Shown here: positions 24,396 through 60,744 of the stretch, piece by piece
Position numbering within the stretch: position 1 is the first letter of the stretch
Layout of the letters: each line of letters opens with the position of its first letter
Assembly (NCBI GenBank): GCA_002239025.1
Contig: MPNM01000017.1
Location: forward strand, 1-60,744
DNA: 60,744 nucleotides
Origin: Chloroflexi bacterium bin125
GTDB lineage: Bacteria > Chloroflexota > Dehalococcoidia > Bin125
Direction: 5' to 3'
Translations under genes and position numbers: made by a program
The notes under the pieces: generated by a model
What the model saw: only the letters and a program-made list of their open reading frames with translations
What the model was told of the DNA's origin: nothing
The model's database searches: none

Positions 24396-25280
24396 CTACG
24401 TCCGACGCTTGAGCGCGCCGCGACCATCGCCGAACGGGTCGTCGCGCCATTCCAGCGCGACCTTGAGTCCCTTCTCGCGTCCGATGTTGACGAACTCGTT
24501 AATGCTTGGCGCTTCGTGCCAGATCGCATCGAAATCCGCGCCTTCGGACGCGGCCACACGCAGACCCATCAACTCGAACCAACGGTTGGTCGAGTGCTTG
24601 TGGACCGTCAGTCCATCCAGCGGCACGTTGGCGATCCGCTGGCAGTAGGCCATCGTTTCTTCGTCGAGCACCTCTTCTGGATAAGCGCGATTGATCATGC
24701 CGATTCGCTCAGCCTCGACGCCGTCCACGGTGTCGCCGCTGAACAGCAGTTCCTTCGTCTTCAGCATGCCAATCTTGGCCGGCCACATGCCCAGCGTCGG
24801 CGGGATCCCGATCGCGCGACCGGCAGGATGACCGAAGCGCGCCGTGTCGGAGGCGAAGACGATGTCGCAGGCGCCGATCATTTCGCCGCCGCCAGCCAGG
24901 CACCAGCCGTGGACCTGGGCGACGATCGGCTTGCGATAGCCCCACATCCACAGCCAGCGATCGACCGAGACGCGAAGATTCTCACGGTCCAGCGCAATCC
25001 GAGATTCGCCCAACTCCCAGGCCTGATCGCCGCTGCGCTGGTTCGGTCGCCAATTCATCGCCCCGCCGCCCGGTGTCAGATCATAGCCCGCGCAGAACGC
25101 GCGCCCCGCGCCCTTGAGCCGGATCACCCGGACCGAGTCGCCAGGATTCAGCTCCCGCAGAGCAGCCTCCAGGTCGTCGCGAAGATCCCCGGAGATCGCA
25201 TTCAGCTTCTCCGGCCGATTCAAGGTGATCGTCGCCACTGGCCCGTCAATATCGACGAGTACGTTTTCATATTCAGTCAT
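24396..25280 (-). CDS. crotonase (enoyl-CoA hydratase/isomerase) family protein, copy 1
   Basis: A 294-aa crotonase-fold protein: DGPVATITLNRPEKLNAIS (N-terminus), GAGRAFCAGYDLTPGGG (first oxyanion segment), VHGWCLAGGGEMIGACDIVFASDTARFGHPAGRAIGIPPTLG (second). The Glu of GGGEM matches Glu144 of rat crotonase, but the position of Glu164 is Ala (HPAGR), so classical hydration is unlikely; isomerase, thioesterase or another crotonase reaction is possible. The AAGGGG RBS is clear. It is very similar to 25654-26538, with the same length, and is a paralog from duplication. Confidence 0.88.
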   Translation of the reverse strand: MTEYENVLVDIDGPVATITLNRPEKLNAISGDLRDDLEAALRELNPGDSVRVIRLKGAGRAFCAGYDLTPGGGAMNWRPNQRSGDQAWELGESRIALDRENLRVSVDRWLWMWGYRKPIVAQVHGWCLAGGGEMIGACDIVFASDTARFGHPAGRAIGIPPTLGMWPAKIGMLKTKELLFSGDTVDGVEAERIGMINRAYPEEVLDEETMAYCQRIANVPLDGLTVHKHSTNRWFELMGLRVAASEGADFDAIWHEAPSINEFVNIGREKGLKVALEWRDDPFGDGRGALKRRT

Positions 25281-25335
25281 GGTTTGCCCCTTCAGTAGGA
25301 ATCAACCGAATGTTACTCGCCAACCAGTTTCTGTC

Positions 25336-25462
25336 ATTCCCGCGCTCCGACGCGGGAATCTCGCCGACTGCTGCACGACCGGTCGCGACCGAGAAACAGC
25401 TTAGATACCTCTACTGCACCCCCATTCCCGTCATTCCCGCGCACCGACGCGGGAATCTCGCA
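25336..25462. repeat. family B hairpin repeats (ATTCCCGCG/CGCGGGAAT), two direct copies
   Basis: Stem ATTCCCGCG at 25336-25344 pairs with CGCGGGAAT at 25351-25359; the second copy is at 25433-25441 and 25448-25456. Both are preceded by GTC and followed by CTCG. Partial reversed copies (CGCGGGTATGACGG-like) occur near 25563-25580 and 25610-25622. These repeats fill the 373-bp gap between the two crotonase genes; I see no gene in it. Confidence 0.7.
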
Positions 25463-25653
25463 GCGAACGGCAACACTGCCGGCAACGGGGAGGCCGTGAG
25501 TGGTCGCAGCGGCTCCGGTTGATCAGTCGTAGTGCACCACAAGTCGAGATACCTGCGACGAGCGCGGGTATGACGGAGCGGAGGCGCTGGTCTGACAAAG
25601 AGAGGGAATGGGTATGACGGGAAACTCAGTGCACGATAAAGACCAAAGTGGTC

Positions 25654-26538
25654 CTACCCTTGACGCCGAACCGCCCCACGACCGTCTCCAAACGGATCGT
25701 CGCGCCACTCCAACGCCGCCTTGAGACCCTTCGACCTTGAAATTTTGCCAAACTCCGCGATCGTCGGCGCTTCCGCGAAGATTGCGTTGAACTCTGCGCC
25801 TTCGATCGCTGACATGCGCAATCCCATCAGCTCGGCCCAGCGGTTGGTCGAGTGCTTGTGCACGGTCAGACCGTCCAACGGCACTTGCGCGATGCGATGG
25901 CAATAGGCCAGGGTCTCGGCGTCGAGCGCCTCCTCCGTGTAAACCCGATTGACCATGCCGATCCGCTCCGCCTCCACGCCATCAATCGTGTCGCCGCTGA
26001 ACAAGAGTTCTTTGGTCTTCAACATGCCGATCTTGACCGGCCACATGCCCAACGTCGGCGGTTGGCCCAGCGCCCGCCCAGCCGGGTGACCAAAGCGCGC
26101 CGTTTCCGAGGCAAAGATGATGTCGCACGATCCAACCAGGTCGTTGCCGCCCGCGAGGCACCAGCCATGCACCTGCGCGATGATCGGCTTGCGATACGAC
26201 CAGATCCACAGCCAGCGCTCGATCGAGTCGCGTAGGTGCTCGCGGTTCATCGCCGCCATCGACTCACCCAGCTCCCACGCCTGATCGCCAGTCCGTCGGG
26301 TCGGAACGAACTGGAAGTCGTTGTCGTCGGGCGTGATGTCGTATCCGGCGCAAAATGCCCGCCCCGCCGCCTTGATCCGGATCACCCGCACCGCGTCGCC
26401 GGGATTCAGCTCGCGCAGAGCTGCCGCAAGGTCATCACGCAGCGACTCCGAGAGAGCATTCAGTTTCTCGGGACGGTTGAGCGTGATCGTCGCTACCCCA
26501 CCGTCAACTTCGACGAGGATGTTCTGATACTCAGCCAT
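25654..26538 (-). CDS. crotonase (enoyl-CoA hydratase/isomerase) family protein, copy 2
   Basis: A 294-aa paralog of the gene at 24396-25280 with the same segments (GRAFCAGYDITPDD, GWCLAGGNDLVGSCDIIFASETARFGHPAGRALGQPPTLG). At the Glu144-equivalent it has Asp (GGNDL), and the Glu164-equivalent is again Ala. Its own AGGGGG RBS precedes the ATG. The duplicated gene pair separated by repeats suggests recombination between repeats created or maintains the copies. Confidence 0.88.
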   Translation of the reverse strand: MAEYQNILVEVDGGVATITLNRPEKLNALSESLRDDLAAALRELNPGDAVRVIRIKAAGRAFCAGYDITPDDNDFQFVPTRRTGDQAWELGESMAAMNREHLRDSIERWLWIWSYRKPIIAQVHGWCLAGGNDLVGSCDIIFASETARFGHPAGRALGQPPTLGMWPVKIGMLKTKELLFSGDTIDGVEAERIGMVNRVYTEEALDAETLAYCHRIAQVPLDGLTVHKHSTNRWAELMGLRMSAIEGAEFNAIFAEAPTIAEFGKISRSKGLKAALEWRDDPFGDGRGAVRRQG

Positions 26539-45865: not shown

Positions 45866-46804
45866 ATGGTTACCGCTCACGCACCGGGGAAGTTTTACCG
45901 CACTGGCATCAGTCTGGTCGAGCTCTTTCAGATGTTCCCGGACGATGCGACGGCTGAGGCGTTCTTTGTGGCCGAGCGTTGGCCTGATGGTCCTGAGTGC
46001 CCCTACTGCGAGTCCGACAACGTTCAGATCGGTGCGAAGCACAAGACCATGCCGTTCCGCTGCCGCACCTGCCGCAAGCGCTTCTCGGTCAAGACCGGCA
46101 CGGTCATGGAAGCGTCCAATATCGGCTACCAGAAGTGGGCACTGGCTGCATTCCTACTGACCACGTCGCTCAAGGGCGTCAGCAGCATGAAACTGCACCG
46201 CGATCTCAACGTCACTCAGAAGACCGCCTGGTTCCTGGCTCACCGGATCCGAGAAGCCTGGCTCAGTGAACAGGACCCGTTCGATGGTCCGGTCGAGGCG
46301 GACGAGACGTTCGTGGGTGGCAAGGAAAAGAACAAGCACGCGAATAAGAAGCTCAAGTCTGGTCGCGGAACAGTCGGCAAGACTGCCGTCGTCGGTGTCA
46401 AGGATCGTGAGACGGGCAAGGTTGCCGCGCAGGTCGTCCCCGGCACGGACGCAGCATCCTTGGTGCCGTTCGTGACCGACCGGACGGAAACCGATGCGCT
46501 GGTCTACACCGACGAGCACAAAGGCTACCTGCCCTTGCCACGTCGCCGTGAAGTAGTCGCGCACTCGGTCGGCGAATACGTCAACGGGCAAGCGCACACG
46601 AATGGGATCGAGTCGTTTTGGTCAATGCTCAAGCGTGGATACGTGGGAACCTACCACCACATGAGCCCGCAACATCTGGATCGCTACGTGACTGAGTTCG
46701 CTGGGCGCCACAATCAACGCCCCGCAGACACGATTGACCAGCTGCGAGGCGTCGTGCGCGGCATGGTCGGCAAGCGCCTGCGCTACTCCGAGCTGATCGG
46801 ATAG
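45866..46804 (+). CDS. IS1595-family transposase
   Basis: A 312-aa transposase. An N-terminal zinc ribbon (CPYCESDN...CRTCRKRFS: two CxxC pairs, about 46-70) precedes a helix-turn-helix-like region (SMKLHRDLNVTQKTAWFLAHRIREAW) and the ISXO2-type DDE domain: VEADETFVGGKEKNKH (first Asp), ALVYTDEHKGY (second Asp) and HTNGIESFWSMLKRGYVG (Glu). It cuts and joins the 24-bp ends of this element. AAAGGGG lies 8 nt before the ATG. All catalytic residues are present, so it should be active. Confidence 0.95.
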   Translation: MVTAHAPGKFYRTGISLVELFQMFPDDATAEAFFVAERWPDGPECPYCESDNVQIGAKHKTMPFRCRTCRKRFSVKTGTVMEASNIGYQKWALAAFLLTTSLKGVSSMKLHRDLNVTQKTAWFLAHRIREAWLSEQDPFDGPVEADETFVGGKEKNKHANKKLKSGRGTVGKTAVVGVKDRETGKVAAQVVPGTDAASLVPFVTDRTETDALVYTDEHKGYLPLPRRREVVAHSVGEYVNGQAHTNGIESFWSMLKRGYVGTYHHMSPQHLDRYVTEFAGRHNQRPADTIDQLRGVVRGMVGKRLRYSELIG

Positions 46805-56171: not shown

Positions 56172-56247
56172 GGGCCGGTAGCTCAGGGGTCAGAGCAGGC
56201 GGCTCATAACCGCTCGGTCGCTGGTTCGAATCCAGCCCGGCCCACCA
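56172..56247 (+). tRNA. tRNA-Met (CAT anticodon)
   Basis: The cloverleaf folds fully: acceptor stem GGGCCGG (56172-56178) with CCGGCCC (56237-56243), D-arm GCTC/GAGC, anticodon stem GGCGG/CCGCT around CTCATAA with anticodon CAT (56205-56207), T-arm GCTGG-TTCGAAT-CCAGC, discriminator A and encoded CCA. The first acceptor pair is G-C and the anticodon stem lacks the three G-C pairs of the initiator, so it is an elongator Met tRNA, or an Ile tRNA read after lysidine modification. The serine recombinase frame ends inside it on the other strand. Confidence 0.92.
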
Positions 56248-57824
56248 TCACGTACTGAACTGCGAACACCCTCCGCAAGCGCCACTTCGGCGGTGTCCTT
56301 GCGCCCGATGGGGCTGTCCTCAGGCATCGGAATCGTGTAGTGGATTGTGGCCCGGCCGGGCTCGACGGCGATGCGCTTGATGAATGTCCTGAGGAACGCC
56401 TTCGACTCGGTGATGTCGCTGGTGCGCAGGAAATCGGCCATGTCGGCGGCGAACTCGGCCACGACCTCCGCCTTGTCCAGCAGCACGCGGCGCTCGGCTA
56501 AGGCATTGCGAGCCTTTTCGGCGGCGAGCTCCAACTGCTCCTTGCGCGCCATATGCTCGCGGATGCGCGGTGCGGCGTCATCGACGTCAAGGTCGGTCTT
56601 CTCAATCACGCGCCAGATGCGGTCCAGCATCAGCCGGATCTCGCGCAACTCGGCTTCGATCGTCTCCAGCCGCTCGCGCTCTTCTCGGGCGGCGCCGTCC
56701 ATCTCCTCGTCCAGCATCTTGACCAGTTCGCGGATGTTGCTCTCGGTCAGCACGTGGTCCCGCAGTTGGTCGAGGATCAGGGTCTCGAACCGCTTGGCGT
56801 TGAGCCTGGGCGTCTCGCAGCTGCCTGAGCCGCGCTTGAGCAGCGAGCCGCAGACGTAGTAGGAGTAGCGCCCGCCCTTGGCCTCGGCGGCGGTGAGCTT
56901 CTTCTCGCAGAGCGCGCAGGCGACGAGGCCGGAGAGCAGGTAGGGGCTGGCCGCGCGGCGCGGGTTGGTCTTGGCCGGCGCGCGCGCTTCGAGCATCGCC
57001 CGGACCTGCTCGAACTCTTCCCCGGAGACGATCGCGGGCACCGCGTTCTCGACCCGCACCGGCTCTGAGCCGTCGGTTGCCTTGAGCCCCCAGACCAGGG
57101 TGCCCATGTAGACCTCGTTGGAGAGCATGTTGTGCACTGTGGTCTTGAGCCAGCGTTTGCCCGTGGCCGTAGGGATGCCTTCCTTGTTGAGCGTCTTCAC
57201 GATCTCGAGGATGCTCTGGCCGCGCAGCGCCATCTCGAAGATGCGTCTGGCCAGGGCGTCCTTGGGCGGGTCGAGTTCGAGCCGGGGCCGCTGCTTGCCG
57301 CCGTCCGGGACGTAGACCTTGCGGTAGCCGAAGGGCGCGACGGAGGAGAGGTAGAAGCCGCGCTGGGCCGATTCGCGCATCCCCCGGCGGACCTCCTGGG
57401 CCAGGTTCTCGGAGTAGAACTCATCGACGCTCTCGATGATCGCCTCCATCAGTTTGCCGGTCGGGGTGTCGTCGGCGTGTTCGGTGATCGAAGTCACGCG
57501 GACCCCGCGCCGGCGCAGCATCGACTTGAAGGCGACGGCGTGTTCGCGCTTGCGGGTGAAGCGGGAGAACTTCCAGACCAGGATCTCCTGGAAGGGCGAC
57601 TCGGTCTCCGAGGCCTCGTTCAGCATCTTGCGGAACTGGGGCCGGTCGGCGACGCGTCCCGACTCGGCCTCGTCGATGTACTCGCGCACGACGCGGTAGC
57701 CGTTGCGCTCGGCGAAGTCGCGCAGGGCGCGGAGCTGAGCGGCGACGGAGAGGTCGACGTCCTGGCGGTCCGAGGAAACGCGGGCGTAGAGCGCGGCGGT
57801 CGTCGCTTGGTTTAGCTCTTGCAT
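56190..57824 (-). CDS. large serine recombinase (site-specific integrase), ending inside tRNA-Met
   Basis: A 544-aa recombinase from ATG 57824 (TTG 57836 possible). Resolvase catalytic domain: ALYARVSSDRQ (catalytic Ser 17) and WKFSRFTRKREHA; then the recombinase domain (APFGYRKV...SILEIVKTLNKEGIPTATGKRWLKTTVHNMLSNEVYMGTLVWG), a zinc ribbon (CALCEKKLTAAEAK...YYVCGSLLKRGSGSC) and a long coiled coil. The last residues GWIRTSDRAVMSRLL are antisense tRNA translated, so the gene's 3' end overlaps the tRNA. This is the layout of an integrated element whose attachment core lies in the tRNA 3' half. By eye it is richer in GC than its neighbours. Confidence 0.92.
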   Translation of the reverse strand: MQELNQATTAALYARVSSDRQDVDLSVAAQLRALRDFAERNGYRVVREYIDEAESGRVADRPQFRKMLNEASETESPFQEILVWKFSRFTRKREHAVAFKSMLRRRGVRVTSITEHADDTPTGKLMEAIIESVDEFYSENLAQEVRRGMRESAQRGFYLSSVAPFGYRKVYVPDGGKQRPRLELDPPKDALARRIFEMALRGQSILEIVKTLNKEGIPTATGKRWLKTTVHNMLSNEVYMGTLVWGLKATDGSEPVRVENAVPAIVSGEEFEQVRAMLEARAPAKTNPRRAASPYLLSGLVACALCEKKLTAAEAKGGRYSYYVCGSLLKRGSGSCETPRLNAKRFETLILDQLRDHVLTESNIRELVKMLDEEMDGAAREERERLETIEAELREIRLMLDRIWRVIEKTDLDVDDAAPRIREHMARKEQLELAAEKARNALAERRVLLDKAEVVAEFAADMADFLRTSDITESKAFLRTFIKRIAVEPGRATIHYTIPMPEDSPIGRKDTAEVALAEGVRSSVRDGGPGWIRTSDRAVMSRLL

Positions 57825-57909
57825 GGGGTGTTCCAATCGTGATGATGTTCATCTGACCGTGCGCCCGTTGTCGGCAGCGAAGCATGGCCTGCCAGCGCGC
57901 AGCAAGCGT

Positions 57910-58097: not shown

Positions 58098-60744
58098 CTA
58101 GGATGTGTCGTCGCCCGGCTGGGGCAGCATGGCGTCGAAGAGTGCGCCGAGCACTTCACCGCCCGTTCCGAGATTGCGGCTCAGTTCTGTGCCGTCGGCG
58201 GCTTTGATTGTCAGGTAACCGCCGCTGGCGATGTCGACCAGCATCACGGCGGGAATCTCTGATGCGCCGTGGGTAGCTGCCACCACTAACCAGCTCCGGC
58301 TCGACGCGAGCACCAATGTAAGCGAACTTCCGCTGCGCGAGACGGTCGCTGTGCCGCCGCCCCAGACTGCGATGCAGGGGTCTGCGTCAAGATCGAGCCG
58401 GAAGGACCCTCCTTCGGCCACCGCGCACGCCTGCTCTGCCTCCGCCTGTTGTGCTGCCACCTGCGGTGCGGCCTGGCGGATTGATGCGGCGATGGCCAGC
58501 AGGGTCGCGTCCGTGACGCCCGTGACCGTCGGCCCGCTCGAGGCGCTGTGGGCGGGCAAGCTTCCTGGATCGACGACCAGTTCCGCCCCGTTCGAGCTGC
58601 TGAAGACCGCGGCCTCGATCCCTGATCCGAGCGTGCGCGCGCTCAAGATGACCGTCGCGCCCTCAGGCACAGCGAACGTGAAGGCGTGCGCACCCCAAAC
58701 GAAGTGGTAGGAACCGGCCTGCAGCCTGGCTGCGGGAGCGGTAGCGGCGCTGCCAGACTGACCGCTTGCTGTGCCGTCGGCAGGGCTTTGTAAACAGCGC
58801 TGAGAGCGCCCGGTCCGCGTCCAGGAGCTCCAGTGGAACGCGCCCGGCGGCTCGGTGAAGTACGGCCTCGGGTTGCGCCGTCCGTCGAGCCAAGCGTGCG
58901 CGGAGTCGCTCCAGACGTGCGGCCGCCGATGATAGGAGTAGCGCACACCGGTCCGGCTCTGCTCCTCCAGCAGGCAGAAGACGCCGTCGTCGATCCGCAC
59001 CCAGCGCGTCTGGGTCGTCGTCTGCACAGTGACCCGCACGACATCGTCGGACGGCTTGGGTTTCGTATTGCCCGTGTCGCTCCAGCCCGACCAGAAGTAC
59101 GTCGCCCGGCCATATTGGCCGGTCTGCCAGGCGCAGAGCGTCTCGTCCCAGGTCACACTGCGGCTGCGGCGTTGCATTCGGACTCGAATGACCTCGTGCG
59201 CGGTCATTCCGCGCAACTGCCAGTCCAACTGCGTTCGGCGGGGACTGACCTCTTCAACCAGCGTTCCGGCTGGCTTGGCCGGCGCGGTGCGAATCCTCCC
59301 CGTCGAGCTCCACGGGGTCCAGGCAGGCGAACCGACATTCCCCCAGGAACCGGTGATCCAGGCGCAGTCAGCTGCGTCCCAAGACACTCTCCGGCTTTGC
59401 CGCTGGACCAGGTCGCGCTGTTCTTCCGCCGTGTTGCCTCCGACTGGTTCGGCCCAGCGCGTCTCGCTGCGCACGACGATGGTTTGGCTGTCGGAGGGCT
59501 TGGCCGGCGCGGCGCGGGTTACGCCGGTCGGTCGCCACGGGGTCCAGGCAGGCGAACCGACATTCCCCCAGGAACCGGTGATCCAGGCGCAGTCCGCCGT
59601 GTCCCAGGACACTCTCCGGCTTTGCCGCTGGACCAGGTCGCGCTGTTCTTCCGCCGTGTTGCCTCCGACTGGTTCGGCCCAGCGCGTCTCGCTGCGCACG
59701 ACGATGGACTGGTTACCGGACGGCTTGGCTGGCGCGACGCGGGTCACGCCGGTCGGCCGCCACGGGGTCCAGGCAGGCGAACCGACATTCCCCCACGAAC
59801 CGGTGATCCAGGCGCAGTCCGCCGTGTCCCAGGACACGCTCCGGCTCTGTCGCTGTACCAGATCGCGTTGCTCTTCGGCCGTGCGTCCGCCGACTGGTTC
59901 GGCCCACCGGGTCTCGCTGCGCACGACGATGGTCTGGCTATTGGCCGGCTTGGCCGGCGCAGCGCGGGTCACGCCGGTGGGCTTCCACGGCGTCCAGGAA
60001 GGCGAACCAGGATCTCCCCAAGCACCGGTGCTCCAGGCACAGGCCGTCTCGTCCCAGGTCACGCTGCGGCTCTGCCGTTGGACCGAATCGCGTTGCTCCT
60101 CAGCGGTCCGTCCGCCGACTGGTTCGGCCCAGCGCGTGTTACTGCGCACGACGATGTTCTGGCTATCGACCGGCTTGGCCGGCGCAGCGCGAGTCACGCC
60201 GGTGGGCTTCCACGGCGTCCAGGAAGGCGAACCAGGATCTCCCCAAGCACCGGTGCTCCAGGCACAGGCCGTCTCGTCCCAGGTCACGCTGCGGCTCTGC
60301 CGTTGGACCGAATTGCGTTGCTCCTCAGCGGTCCGTCCGCCGACTGGTTCGGCCCACCGGGTCTCGCTGCGCACGACGATGGTCTGGCTATTGGCCGGCT
60401 TGGCCGGCGCAGCGCGGGTGACACCAGTGGCTGACCACAAAGTCCAGGAGGGCGGGCCGACGTTTCCCCAAGTACCGGTGCTCCATGCGCCGGCCGTAGT
60501 GTCCCAGGACACGCTGCGGCTCTGCCGTTGGACCGAATCGCGTAGCTCCTCAGCGGTCCGTCCGCCGACTGGTTCGGCCCAGCGGGTCTCGCTGCGCGCG
60601 ACGATGTTCTGGCTATCGGCCGGCTTGGCCGGCGCAGCGCGGGTCACGCCGGTGGGCTTCCACGGCGTCCAGGAAGGCGAACCAGGATCTCCCCAAGCAC
60701 CGGTGCTCCAGGCACAGGCCGTCTCGTCCCAGGTCACGCTGCGG
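58098..60744 (-). CDS. large Trp-rich tandem-repeat protein (5' end outside window)
   Basis: The frame is open to the right edge; 881 residues are visible. From the edge to about 59155 it consists of at least seven 75-residue units (225 bp period) plus an eighth, divergent one. Each unit holds VSWD/VTWD...CAW...TG.WG..G.P.WTPW..TG.TR..PAKP.. then ET.WAEPVGG.TAEE.RD.VQRQSR, with about six Trp and usually one Cys. A ninth, degenerate unit (AWLDGRRNP...WSSWTRTG) is followed by a unique C-terminal part (about 250 aa: Ala/Ser/Gly-rich with FRLDLDADPCIAVWGGG). I recognise no family. It is probably a surface or adhesin-like protein. It lies on the tRNA-linked island beside the recombinase. Confidence 0.8.
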   Translation of the reverse strand, partial: RSVTWDETACAWSTGAWGDPGSPSWTPWKPTGVTRAAPAKPADSQNIVARSETRWAEPVGGRTAEELRDSVQRQSRSVSWDTTAGAWSTGTWGNVGPPSWTLWSATGVTRAAPAKPANSQTIVVRSETRWAEPVGGRTAEEQRNSVQRQSRSVTWDETACAWSTGAWGDPGSPSWTPWKPTGVTRAAPAKPVDSQNIVVRSNTRWAEPVGGRTAEEQRDSVQRQSRSVTWDETACAWSTGAWGDPGSPSWTPWKPTGVTRAAPAKPANSQTIVVRSETRWAEPVGGRTAEEQRDLVQRQSRSVSWDTADCAWITGSWGNVGSPAWTPWRPTGVTRVAPAKPSGNQSIVVRSETRWAEPVGGNTAEEQRDLVQRQSRRVSWDTADCAWITGSWGNVGSPAWTPWRPTGVTRAAPAKPSDSQTIVVRSETRWAEPVGGNTAEEQRDLVQRQSRRVSWDAADCAWITGSWGNVGSPAWTPWSSTGRIRTAPAKPAGTLVEEVSPRRTQLDWQLRGMTAHEVIRVRMQRRSRSVTWDETLCAWQTGQYGRATYFWSGWSDTGNTKPKPSDDVVRVTVQTTTQTRWVRIDDGVFCLLEEQSRTGVRYSYHRRPHVWSDSAHAWLDGRRNPRPYFTEPPGAFHWSSWTRTGRSQRCLQSPADGTASGQSGSAATAPAARLQAGSYHFVWGAHAFTFAVPEGATVILSARTLGSGIEAAVFSSSNGAELVVDPGSLPAHSASSGPTVTGVTDATLLAIAASIRQAAPQVAAQQAEAEQACAVAEGGSFRLDLDADPCIAVWGGGTATVSRSGSSLTLVLASSRSWLVVAATHGASEIPAVMLVDIASGGYLTIKAADGTELSRNLGTGGEVLGALFDAMLPQPGDDTS
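59155..60744. repeat. 225-bp tandem repeat array within the Trp-rich protein gene
   Basis: The 225-bp unit recurs at a constant spacing. A block of about 90 bp starting GCTTCCACGGCGTCCAGG is identical at 59981, 60206 and 60656, while the unit between (about 60431) is diverged. Units at 59391 and 59616 form a second subtype nearly identical to each other. The array continues past the window edge. Confidence 0.9.

Follow-up and report, generated by a model that had tools for sequence, protein, structure and literature searches.

Periscope proteins such as SasG, Rib, and Sgo_0707 have stalks built of near-identical repeats (PMC8201768), and fibrillar adhesins, for which criteria have been listed (PMC8286594), include many proteins with no known anchor. 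We identified a Trp-rich tandem-repeat protein that partly resembles both groups, encoded at one end of a 60,744-nucleotide stretch of DNA from Chloroflexi bacterium bin125 (the window), which is the full length of contig C62 in a source genome of 3.68 Mb and 66 contigs. It shares with periscope proteins a series of tandem near-identical units, extracellular relatives, and a constant C-terminal end, and its units are similar enough in DNA for their number to change; but its unit family differs, and it has neither an LPxTG anchor nor a known N-terminal ligand-binding domain. The relatives resemble fibrillar adhesin-like proteins in being extracellular and in having a long chain of fn3, Ig-like, and InlB-repeat modules, but no listed adhesive domain or known anchor was found in them or in the window protein; the published criteria (PMC8286594) apply to them in part only. 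Proteins with InlB B-repeats (Internalin/Listeria-Bacteroides repeats) are a further point of comparison, since one relative has four of them upstream of its Trp units; but the Trp units and the C-terminal domain fall outside those families, and the sequenced part of the window protein has no InlB B-repeat. The WxxW motif, the spaced Arg in short beta strands, and the small repeated extracellular modules also give a resemblance, and no more than that, to thrombospondin type-1 repeats (PF00090): our units give no Pfam match to them even at E 10, the regular units have at most one Cys each (versus six), and they are 75 (versus about 55) amino acids long.

The repeat gene (Table 1) is an open frame that has its stop at 58098 and extends off the contig end; what we see is the C-terminal part of the protein, and the N-terminus lies past the contig end. 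TRF detected a period of 225 bp in this gene (6.4 copies, 87% matches, score 1800, far above chance). Six units are complete (59277-60626), each with exactly six Trp; the TRF result, the unit profile, and the 881-residue frame all bear out the initial annotation, which had described a Trp-rich 75-residue tandem-repeat protein with about six Trp in fixed places. The complete units share 73-93% pairwise protein identity, with 47 of the 75 positions invariant, and the DNA units of the array are 74-96% identical to one another; the consensus of the six is KP...Q.IV.RS.TRWAEPVGG.TAEE.R..VQRQSR.V.WD....AW.TG.WG..G.P.WT.W..TG..R.APA. They are preceded by a seventh unit, cut by the contig end: the "at least seven near-identical units" of the initial annotation are reached if the cut unit is counted, but only six are complete and some pairs differ by 27%. 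Similarly, the CAW motif ascribed to each unit is present in all but one, which has GAW. Two divergent units follow downstream, and then a separate C-terminal domain, about 225 residues long, that the earlier description lacked; Trp makes up 7.8% of the repeat region, and the C-terminal domain is low in Trp. Elsewhere in the window, the contig end recurs exactly over at most 127 bases, within the array (127 is a common k of short-read assemblers), so the simplest account of the contig end is that the assembly broke at the repeat. A profile search of the source genome found no contig with units besides C62 and C46 (see below); therefore the missing N-terminal part is either carried by a contig that has no units or not in the bin at all.

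Table 1. Features of the repeat gene and the neighbouring recombinase in the window.
Feature	Position	Strand	Basis
tRNA-Met (CAT), integration target	56172-56247	+	ARAGORN; conserved in genus
Large serine recombinase (integrase)	56190-57836	-	Pfam Resolvase/Recombinase/Zn_ribbon_recom; PHROG 95 integrase, E 3e-113
Probable att core: final 16 nt of tRNA, then about 20 nt of arm	56232-56267		junction alignment
Trp-rich repeat protein, C-terminal part, 881 aa	58098-60743	-	open frame; pN/pS 0.30 between units
C-terminal domain, common to C46 paralog, COS3_bin_15 protein, and other family proteins	58098-58787	-	alignments, profile search
Most divergent, last unit; two conserved Cys	58788-59045	-	unit profile, E 1.0e-20; alignment
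Divergent Trp-rich unit	59052-59273	-	unit profile, E 7.1e-21
75-aa Trp-rich unit	59277-59501	-	unit profile, E 1.5e-28
75-aa Trp-rich unit	59502-59726	-	unit profile, E 1.9e-27
75-aa Trp-rich unit	59727-59951	-	unit profile, E 2.5e-29
75-aa Trp-rich unit	59952-60176	-	unit profile, E 5.8e-29
75-aa Trp-rich unit	60177-60401	-	unit profile, E 7.0e-29
75-aa Trp-rich unit, 6 Trp	60402-60626	-	unit profile, E 1.5e-26
Incomplete unit at contig end, final 39 residues	60627-60743	-	unit profile, E 1.7e-13

The protein had been called unrecognised, and our searches agree: nothing scored above the Pfam or NCBIfam cut-offs for the window protein, the repeat proteins have no PADLOC match, and the unit profile matched no sequence in the PDB (a longer profile gave only matches at E about 0.1, to an mRNA export factor). 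The units fall outside the known stalk families, since they have no Pfam match. We discounted a match of the window protein to PHROG 33578 (E 1e-5), which spans 20 residues and in which no individual region passes. Structure prediction, which the initial annotation had proposed as a check, was run with AlphaFold on three units but reached a pLDDT of only 40 (pTM 0.22; pLDDT 41 for the C-terminal half); at this low confidence the unit is predicted to be mostly beta, with two long strands and short ones. Foldseek searches with these models found none at E <= 0.001, and the top matches, T4 gp34 and the staphylococcal biofilm adhesion protein 4fum, had TM < 0.2 and were not used. C-mannosylation of Trp was considered because of the WxxW sequon, and a search of the genome for Dpy19 (PF10034) found none. 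Going by the libraries searched, the 75-residue Trp unit and the C-terminal domain are previously undescribed domain families, although the kind of protein that contains them is known.

Two relatives extend the picture upstream. The paralog on contig C46 of the same genome, 2350 residues long and also open at its N-terminus, has four fn3 domains, He_PIG, an M23-like domain, Ca_tandemer (an adhesin repeat, below cut-off here), four divergent Trp units, and the C-terminal domain of the window protein; the two proteins are 48% identical over the last 360 residues. The second relative is encoded by Chloroflexi bacterium COS3_bin_15, of a different genus of the same bacterial family; it has an N-terminal signal peptide (MIRAKVLTAVLIASAAALGTLGTVAA), fn3 and He_PIG domains, and four divergent InlB B-repeats, together with three Trp units and the C-terminal domain. 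The N-terminal halves of these two relatives are clearly unlike each other, and in all three proteins the units directly precede the common C-terminal domain; the alignment also has two Cys in the last, most divergent unit that are kept in all three. The neighbours differ across the three loci: the recombinase in the window, a KAP NTPase on C46, and, in COS3_bin_15, a probable secreted metallopeptidase with a HEFAH motif (L019 4837-7413) and the same C-terminal domain. Of 393 genomes of the class, 2 were found to contain Trp units, the relatives being confined to the same bacterial family, and of 400 genomes of a phylum sample only the window's own did; none of the 14 other genomes of the genus carries a Trp-unit gene. 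By profile search, the C-terminal domain is present in 4 of 20 genomes of the family. A search of plasmids found no relative.

We give a probability of about one half to the reading that the window protein belongs, as the C-terminal part, to a large protein that is secreted to the cell surface, fibrillar, and variable in length, because the signal peptide and extracellular modules of the relatives, the C-terminal domain that stays constant, and the array of near-identical units all fit it. Secretion of the window protein itself is suggested by the signal peptide and extracellular-type modules of its relatives, and it is likewise a prediction that the protein is rod-shaped, anchored, adhesive, and variable in length. 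The near-identical Trp/Arg-rich beta-units would stack as an elongated rod that serves as the stalk, and aromatic and arginine side chains exposed on the rod may make it sticky in itself. The C-terminal domain would be the constant end, by which the protein is probably kept at the envelope, and the missing N-terminal part would point outward and, like the relatives, may carry modules that resemble fibronectin-III, Ig, or M23 domains. Recombination between DNA units of such high identity could change the unit number, and the gene would ride as accessory cargo on a serine-recombinase element inserted at tRNA-Met. The array has the highly similar tandem units of periscope proteins, with their folding predicted; its length variation is a prediction from the array of a single genome. 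The window protein has no SLH domain, sortase-type or LPxTG-like end, or C-terminal transmembrane segment, and no Pfam adhesive domain was found in it or in its relatives (the window protein and the C46 paralog lack sequenced N-termini); the "surface adhesin" of the initial annotation is, going by the relatives, the best-fitting candidate.

The strongest alternative, although an unlikely one, is a secreted lytic or competition protein, in which the M23-like peptidase of the paralog would be active and the Trp units would target cell-wall or polysaccharide ligands, as other aromatic-rich binding repeats do. Trp-rich modules often bind glycans, and the M23 match in the C46 paralog retains the HxxxD and HxH motifs, but its score is just under the Pfam cut-off (26.4 versus 28.7). 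The COS3_bin_15 protein keeps the HxH motif, but not the first M23 motif (HxxxD), and although the neighbouring metallopeptidase has the same C-terminal domain, the 881 residues of the window protein contain no catalytic feature.

The genomic context bears on the gene's mobility. The recombinase adjoining the repeat gene has all three domains (resolvase, recombinase, and Zn-ribbon), and its frame ends inside a tRNA-Met that is empty in most relatives inspected, which upholds the initial placement on a tRNA-integrated island beside an integrase. All 15 genomes of the genus have the tRNA/DUF192 locus. Its downstream side was compared in seven relatives, one of them (G002) readable for 427 bases only, and the same recombinase is at the tRNA in one of the seven (G008); the window genome (G000) and G008 are the sole carriers at tRNA-Met among the downstream sides read. 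For recombinase elements on other contigs, homology to the window begins at 56231, inside the tRNA, and the arm beyond the tRNA reads CCAG(C/T)CCGGCCCACCATCACGTAC(T/C)GAACTGCGAAC. G+C content is 66.7% in the recombinase, 68.6% in the repeat gene, and 61.7% in the chromosome part. The far end of the island was not located: a duplicate of the tRNA 3' end was searched for and not found, and the flank of one relative matches in scattered pieces only. Because of the recombinase/tRNA context and the raised G+C, the repeat gene is most likely accessory cargo of a serine-recombinase element at tRNA-Met. On contig C48 of the same genome (L056 605-3747), a pair of large serine recombinases converge on an att-like sequence resembling the window's tRNA-Met junction, with similar recombinase pairs in G003 (L062) and G014 (L063); the C48 pair possibly represents the joined ends of a two-recombinase element. 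The window also contains an IS1595/ISXO2-type transposase (45866-46804) and two neighbouring, similar enoyl-CoA hydratase genes (24396-26538), probably a tandem duplication.

A bolder proposal, which we regard as rather doubtful, is that the units have a new fold, a Trp/Arg-ladder beta-module joined head to tail into a sticky rod, and that the protein would be an exchangeable surface fibre moved between related Chloroflexota by serine-recombinase elements.

As cargo of a mobile element, the gene could instead belong to an anti-phage defence or bacteriocin-like island, and the candidate defence family PDC-S20 indeed has a match (E 6e-102) in the KAP NTPase beside the C46 paralog (L004 7282-8838). 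Contig C48, which also has a 92% identical recombinase, encodes a Type ISP restriction-modification protein (L056 6280-9027), which points the same way. We consider this improbable, since PADLOC recognised none of the repeat proteins, the neighbourhood is different at each of the three loci, and the secreted architecture of the relatives is ill-suited to intracellular defence; the "defence/competition factor" of the initial annotation is left without direct support.

That the protein is a tail fibre or other tail protein of an integrated phage, also proposed initially as a "phage-like fibre", is very improbable: the adjoining integrase and PHROG tail matches in the C46 paralog would agree with it, but those matches lie on the fn3-like regions, off the units, the sequenced part of the element has no phage structural genes, and no relatives were found in 50,697 phages or in IMG/VR viral contigs (the latter with a single-protein query).

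Finally, the repeat frame is translated, as the differences among units reveal: pooled between the six units, pS is 0.367 and pN 0.111 (ratio 0.30) in the gene frame, and the differences fall at third, first, and second codon positions 319, 155, and 115 times. The two other sense frames contain stops and have pN/pS of 1.3 and 1.7; of the antisense frames, one is open too (ratio 0.40), which makes the test clear within the sense strand but less clear-cut against that frame. What settles the matter for the sense frame is that it stays open in two distant relatives at other loci, over 1517 and 2350 amino acids. Decaying or out-of-frame repeat DNA with no protein product, which would have undone the initial annotation and could be argued from the truncation of the gene in the assembly and from translation evidence drawn from sequence alone, is scarcely credible, as both the ratio and the third-position bias contradict it for the repeat region and the frame is open in those relatives.

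The locus adds two undescribed domain families, the 75-residue Trp unit and the C-terminal domain, so far found in a single family of uncultured Chloroflexota with a cell surface that has received little study, and it presents a giant repeat protein that is probably mobile cargo. If the protein is length-variable, the periscope idea, which comes mainly from pathogens, would reach an uncultured environmental lineage.
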